This document shows positions 8,607 to 9,305 of a DNA stretch of 34,240 nt, in pieces. How positions within the stretch are numbered: the stretch's first letter is position 1; every line of letters begins with the position of its first letter. The stretch comes from Methylotenera sp. (GTDB taxonomy: Bacteria > Pseudomonadota > Gammaproteobacteria > Burkholderiales > Methylophilaceae), in contig JADGRO010000043.1 in assembly GCA_017880905.1 (NCBI GenBank), forward strand, positions 1-34,240, written 5' to 3'. Under the pieces are notes generated by a model. That model made no database searches. It was not told the origin of the DNA and saw only the letters and a list, made by a program, of their open reading frames with translations. A program made the position numbers and the translations under genes.

Positions 8607-9305
8607 TTAAGCTTTCTCTACGTTTGCTTTACGTGATCTCATTTCGCTAATAGCTTTATCAGCAGCTTCTGAAATTTCAGTCTGAGCCGTTAATGGATTA
8701 CGCGATTTCATTTGCTCGATAGCTAATGCAAGAGCTGCATCGTTAGACCTTCTGTTACGCTCTTCTTTGCTTCTTGCTGCAAATGGATGCAATGAATTTT
8801 TGTACTCTTTCAGAACATTAACCGCTTTTGGCTCACGTGCAACTGCAGCCTTAATAGCTTGTTTAGTAGCTTCGTAGTTCCAATCTTGTACACGATCATC
8901 CATGTCAGCTTTATGGTCGATAAACACGCCCACACAGATAAACACGTCATCAGCTTCTTCAACTGGAATTGTGCCATCTGCCACGCAATCCATCACAGCC
9001 ATAGAAACGCCGCGTTGAGCTGGACCAAACATTTGCACTGCTTGTCTACCATCTTTAATGGTTACTTTGTTGAACATCACGGTACTTGGTTTTACCATCA
9101 TATTCGGAGCAACAATCGCCAATAAACCATTCACACCTTCTTTTTGGTCAGTTAAAGTACGGCAAAAAGCATCTTCTGCAGCACTGCCACGTGGACCCAT
9201 AATCAGGTCAATGTGTGCTACATTTTTAAGGTCTAAGCCTGAACCATCAGGGCGTTCTTCAATTACTAAAGCTTCGCCAATTAACACTCGATCAATTACA
9301 GCCAT
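8607..9305 (-). CDS. Fae-like protein (formaldehyde-activating enzyme homologue) with C-terminal extension
   Basis: Fae catalyses condensation of formaldehyde with tetrahydromethanopterin. This 232-residue protein aligns with Fae over about residues 1-175: GEALV, VAHIDLIMGPRGS, MFNKVTI, RQAVQMFGPAQRGVSMAV, EADDVFICVGVFI, NYEATKQAI and HPFAA. The active-site histidine is kept (H31 here, H17 in Methylobacterium Fae). Two differences from canonical Fae stand out. About 8-10 residues are inserted before VAHIDL (EERPDGSGLDLKN). A charged, probably helical tail of about 55 residues follows HPFAARS, whereas canonical Fae ends near residue 170. The start MAVIDRV is set by GGAG seven bases upstream; an in-frame ATG at 9326 is less likely. 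It lies between a chemoreceptor gene and cheR. It may be a Fae paralogue rather than the main metabolic enzyme; whether it binds formaldehyde, a pterin or a chemotaxis partner is open. Confidence 0.85.
   Translation of the reverse strand: MAVIDRVLIGEALVIEERPDGSGLDLKNVAHIDLIMGPRGSAAEDAFCRTLTDQKEGVNGLLAIVAPNMMVKPSTVMFNKVTIKDGRQAVQMFGPAQRGVSMAVMDCVADGTIPVEEADDVFICVGVFIDHKADMDDRVQDWNYEATKQAIKAAVAREPKAVNVLKEYKNSLHPFAARSKEERNRRSNDAALALAIEQMKSRNPLTAQTEISEAADKAISEMRSRKANVEKA

Follow-up and report, generated by a model that had tools for sequence, protein, structure and literature searches.

The window, a 34,240-nucleotide stretch of DNA from Methylotenera sp., carries a gene for formaldehyde-activating enzyme (Fae) inside a cluster of chemotaxis genes (Table 1). 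An earlier note on this DNA gave the coordinates of the gene correctly; the coding strand is the minus strand, with the ATG at 9305 and a stop codon that ends at 8607, and the plus strand across this interval is interrupted by stops. The assignment to the Fae family, also made in that note, holds: the protein scores 208.6 bits against PF08714 (Pfam; residues 9–175) and 199.2 bits against TIGR03126, both far above chance and above the curated cut-offs of 27 and 118.05 bits. Pfam finds Fae only, and no signalling domain (receptor, CheW, CheA or other) was detected in the protein.

Table 1. Mapped features of the fae neighbourhood in the window
Feature	Coordinates	Strand	Description
cheD, cheB, cheY, cheZ	4539..7533	-	Pfam; succeed cheR
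cheR	7530..8420	-	PF01739, PF03705; directly follows fae among the mapped genes, here and in 41 collected loci
fae–cheR gap	8421..8606	-	186 bases; hairpin at 8560-8588
fae	8607..9305	-	232 aa; canonical Fae core and C-terminal tail; matches PF08714, TIGR03126 and 1y5y
Fae tail	8610..8777	-	56 residues after HPFA; RRSND motif, then repeats LAIEQMKSR and KAISEMRSR
MCP gene	9440..12091	-	several HAMP modules; PF00015, PF18575, PF18947; directly upstream of fae
second MCP gene	12831..15149	-	PAS domains; Pfam
cheW, cheA, CheY-like regulator	15266..18609	-	same cluster; Pfam

The Pfam matches bear out the position of fae between a chemoreceptor gene, on its 5ʹ side, and cheR, on its 3ʹ side. Farther upstream lie the PAS-bearing MCP gene, cheW, cheA, motB, motA, flhC and flhD. 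The neighbours are thus che and flagellar genes rather than genes of the H4MPT pathway, and mch sits on a separate contig (C43) of the same genome. We class the gene as che-linked because cheR is next downstream and because it belongs to the linked clade described below. The hairpin between fae and cheR is formed by the inverted repeat AATCAAGGGGT...ACCCCTTGATT, which has an 11-pair stem without a T run, and no terminator was called between the two genes in the window. At the other end of the cluster, a pair of genes for an aldehyde dehydrogenase (ALDH) and a DUF779 protein (2412-4441) is convergent with cheZ; ALDH was found in 26 of the 41 che-linked loci collected from relatives.

A histidine has the active-site role in Fae. 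It is retained in the window protein, as the earlier note had read from the motif VAHIDL, and the residue (H31) does not vary across 57 aligned Fae. Residues 6–178 align with the M. extorquens Fae structure 1y5y, which shares this core and VAHIDL; the window protein differs from it in an insertion before the histidine, in its tail and in its chemotaxis location. The insertion is real relative to 1y5y but is not special, and it was rejected as a hallmark of the window copy: the same 15-residue GExLV-AHID spacer occurs in 38 of the 44 Fae that are not linked to che genes.

Linkage of fae to chemotaxis genes recurs among relatives. The earlier note had called for a survey of this neighbourhood, and the survey shows that the arrangement is not confined to this genome. 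Fae was found in 109 of the 150 genomes in our family sample, and we mapped the window's genes onto 80 collected Fae neighbourhoods, which are the high-scoring Fae places plus the two other Fae of the window's genome (G000), and so do not sample all Fae. In 41 of these loci (42 with the window), fae is followed directly by cheR among the mapped genes; 34 of the 41 also have an MCP gene on the upstream side, and the fae–cheR order occurs in genomes of five genus codes. The distance from fae to the start of the CheR match, which need not be the mapped start codon, is 36–60 bases in 17 loci, mostly of Methylophilus type, and about 95–380 bases elsewhere. A scan of named genomes found the arrangement also in Methylophilus methylotrophus DSM 46235, Methylophilus aquaticus, Methylophilaceae bacterium 11 and Methylotenera mobilis 13. 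Fae is untailed in the loci obtained for Methylobacillus, Methylovorus, Novimethylophilus, M. versatilis 7 and Methylophaga, and the collected stretches of these organisms contain no cheR-cheD-cheB match; some hold weaker MCP-, CheA- or CheY-like matches (27–39% identity). The CheA-like gene near fae in Methylophaga (L194) was rejected as che linkage: a lytic transglycosylase gene, a poly-A polymerase gene and mch intervene, and hence we regard this locus as an ordinary H4MPT context.

A tree of 87 Fae cores places the 43 linked-type rows (the window, the 41 loci and G122) together with the unlinked copies of G006 and G139 in one clade with support of 100/95; the linked group on its own has support of only 53/60. 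A distant paralogue from the window's genome (L124) gave no aligned row and is absent from the tree. As judged from the aligned cores, the window Fae belongs to the canonical Fae lineage, and the linked clade is consistent with one relocation of a canonical gene, which is the simplest reading. Among the 15 listed genomes of the same genus, only G000 and G106 have a che-linked Fae among the collected loci, and the G106 copy (L071) groups with one from another genus; transfer of the cluster is a possible source of this pattern.

The C-terminal extension described in the earlier note is genuine, reaching 54 residues beyond the end of the 1y5y match. All 42 linked Fae carry RR..D in their tails. 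Repeats resembling A-I-x-Q-M-K-x-R occur twice in 27 of these tails, once in 4 and not at all in 11. Tail length ranges from 11 to 60 residues (53 in G090, 11 in G078), and the 11 tails without a repeat are just 11–13 residues long, which argues against a docking function for the tail. Among the 44 unlinked rows, RR..D is present in only one, and 42 end 2–7 residues past HPF and A or Q; the two with longer ends are the 58% identical paralogue of the window's genome (11 residues, without RR..D) and the Fae of G008 (13 residues). The G008 Fae (L141, 8047-8619), which is unlinked and has the tail GPAISRRAEDN, falls outside the linked clade, and its RR..D apparently had a separate origin. The link between RR..D and che genes is not strict, since SRRAEDN occurs in G008, a genome in which no CheD match was found, and since G122 has a short tail and an MCP gene without an adjoining cheR (we counted this copy apart from the 42 linked and 44 unlinked Fae); this, too, counts against docking.

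Purifying selection acts on the tails. In three groups of relatives, dN/dS was 0.137, 0.101 and 0.040 for the tail and 0.016, 0.022 and 0.030 for the core, values that pool non-independent pairs. Hence, the tail is constrained, yet less so than the core. AlphaFold predicts helices at residues 180–186, 190–202 and 208–230 of the window protein, but confidence in them is low and the whole model is weak (mean pLDDT 68; tail blocks 45–63). Searches with the tail alone identified nothing but Fae (in 1 of 28 and in 4 of 56 candidates) and named neither a partner nor another protein type, so that membership of a known family was rejected. The weakness of the model and the lack of a named partner in these searches are further points against docking. 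A class-wide search of 369 genomes gave a match in 49, the window's own included, and among the matches listed only the window's passes query residue 193, so no tailed Fae was seen there outside the family. The tail rule, that is, RR..D in every linked Fae counted and repeats in 31, is new as far as we searched. The tail is not mentioned in the portions of the literature covered, which left out most subscription papers, and “C-terminal” occurs 0 times in the main texts of PMC4109929 and PMC3728764, the portions covered of which do not mention it either.

Several observations bear on whether the window gene encodes an enzyme. The 44 unlinked rows share 62 invariant columns, and the window protein keeps all of them. 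Elsewhere in the linked set, six of these columns are not kept, with departures in as many as 16 of 42 copies; for some of these copies, though not for the window, this argues against a working enzyme with a docking tail. The window's assembly has three Fae genes, and the other two are 58% and about 33% identical to the window copy. In 28 of the 43 genomes with a linked-type gene, many of them drafts, no other Fae of at least 57% identity is among the matches listed; Mch, which belongs to the H4MPT route, was found in 42 of these 43 genomes. Codon adaptation was scored against the ribosomal regions of four relatives, with every ORF of 180–1000 bases there counted, since L2 was not found in the window's own genome. 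The window fae scores 0.70–0.74, which ranks it first among the 22 window genes scored with each of three reference sets, and ALDH is second. In the four relatives, linked Fae scores 0.775, 0.703, 0.657 and 0.756, alongside ribosomal-region medians of 0.72–0.74 and values of 0.48–0.66 for CheR, CheD, CheB, CheY and CheZ. Second Fae copies score 0.595 and 0.53 in two genomes (the G078 value is missing), and the 58% identical copy of the window's genome is lowest or next to lowest among all sequences scored. Together, the intact invariant columns, the scarcity of second Fae, the presence of Mch and the high codon adaptation point to a well-expressed enzyme. Against this, such codon bias is not unique to Fae: an MCP gene reaches 0.706 in G048 and ALDH reaches 0.718 in G090, above the linked Fae there. 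Moreover, the che-cluster copy of M. mobilis JLW8, mmol_1253, is transcribed far below mmol_2056 and is unresponsive, according to the part of PMC3728764 consulted.

What, then, is the role of the window gene? We propose, with a probability of about 50%, that it encodes a canonical-type Fae that is located in a che cluster in one branch of the Methylophilaceae, is likely the main formaldehyde-condensing enzyme of the cell, and has a conserved tail predicted to dock it to a partner protein. We infer the function of the tail, and likewise any link to taxis. The enzyme would condense formaldehyde with tetrahydromethanopterin to yield methylene-tetrahydromethanopterin, and the helical tail would act as an interaction element. 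Fae is a homopentamer; if this applies to the window protein, binding by the tail would be multivalent. The partner would most likely be encoded in the neighbouring che cluster, and formaldehyde capture would thus sit near adaptation or array proteins. An alternative to docking near Che proteins is that fae is simply co-expressed with motility. Should the tail indeed bind chemotaxis proteins, one-carbon metabolism and taxis would be physically connected through it; otherwise, the gene would be an example of a central enzyme relocated without a sensory role.

This last outcome is what a second, more tentative explanation holds, namely that a housekeeping Fae moved into the che cluster by chance rearrangement and that its tail is tolerated or stabilising, with no link to taxis. 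The grouping of linked genes in one clade, as expected of one relocation, and the high codon bias of fae are consistent with this explanation. So is the presence, in 12 of the 41 loci, of a hairpin below -20 kcal/mol in the fae–cheR gap, and so is the persistence of che genes without linked Fae, seen in 23 of the 65 CheD-bearing genomes. Against it stand a fae–cheR order that spans five genus codes and purifying selection on the tail. In addition, G006 and G139, the clade members without a CheD match and without linkage, are also without RR..D, although this need not mean loss.

An unlikely extension of the docking proposal is that Fae does two jobs: the tails would tether the enzyme to the receptor array or to CheR, CheD or CheB, and the flux of formaldehyde capture would tune chemotaxis. 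If this were true, a metabolic enzyme would be built into the chemosensory machine.

It is also improbable that the window gene encodes a dedicated sensory or regulatory Fae, which would bind formaldehyde or a pterin and use the tail to signal to the receptor, CheR, CheB or CheD. A sensory role has been suggested before. Within the portions consulted, PMC4109929 describes one fae in a conserved chemotaxis cluster of new isolates and Methylotenera, and PMC3728764 repeats this location and refers to a previous suggestion of a role in sensing, signalling or regulation; hence, both the placement of fae in the che cluster of Methylotenera and Methylophilus and the sensing idea are already published. 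The che-cluster genes of these genera, mmol_1253 and m301_0896, share the location of the window gene. Expression of m301_0896 in M. versatilis 301 is about 10-fold higher in sediment, where over-expression is also described for the cluster m301_0896-0902 (PMC3728764, same portions). This joint over-expression, the earlier authors' proposal, and the recurrent location and tail of the gene favour a sensory Fae. Nonetheless, its canonical lineage, enzyme-like codon bias and, in 28 of 43 genomes, lack of a second listed Fae at the threshold given above leave that part of the earlier note's interpretation unsupported, whereas its Fae, tail and chemotaxis neighbourhood stand. Our promoter scan used the sigma-28 consensus. 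Such sites precede fae in 2 of the 41 loci, under the 10% rate in shuffled sequences, which speaks against a sensory Fae and led us to reject a sigma-28 promoter ahead of the gene. EfgA, a formaldehyde sensor, is a different protein from Fae by family. It likewise serves the formaldehyde response in methylotrophs (PMC8153426, in the portion covered). A further point against a sensory Fae comes from a distant organism: a Methylobacterium aquaticum mutant without fae1, fae2 and hgd retains methanol and formaldehyde taxis, according to the part of PMC10613068 consulted, which speaks against Fae being generally required for taxis to formaldehyde. For studies of how methylotrophs find methanol and avoid formaldehyde, the tail is small and can be deleted, so that the published sensing idea could be put to a direct test in cultured strains.

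We give very little credence to the idea that the tail mimics the first chemoreceptor methylation helix (LSRRTEDQAA...) as a substrate or decoy of CheR, CheD or CheB. Some Methylophilus-type tails are similar (e.g. NRRTEDQAAAL), long tails, when pooled, have a mean score of 42.2 (maximum 60) with these helices where shuffled tails have 35.2 (sd 6.8), and in 16 of the 25 long tails (out of 31) with an MCP at the same locus the best match begins at that helix; but most same-locus scores are near the shuffled range, with shuffled tails, reversed MCPs and other ORFs as controls. The Gln of this helix is the expected modification site, and many tails have K, H, L, T or A at that position. The window tail scores 40 against 40.1 when shuffled, its best match lies elsewhere, another ORF scores higher (45), and the tail was rejected as a methylation helix on this same-locus test.

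The Fae2 and Fae3 paralogues, so named in the part of PMC4109929 consulted, belong to the same family, whereas the window gene is of canonical type; the distant copies at about 25–39% identity are presumably Fae2/Fae3. In G022, G059, G077 and other genomes of the same genus, Mch is present and the window protein has only distant Fae-family matches (E about 1e-11), and so the H4MPT route may run there without a canonical Fae.
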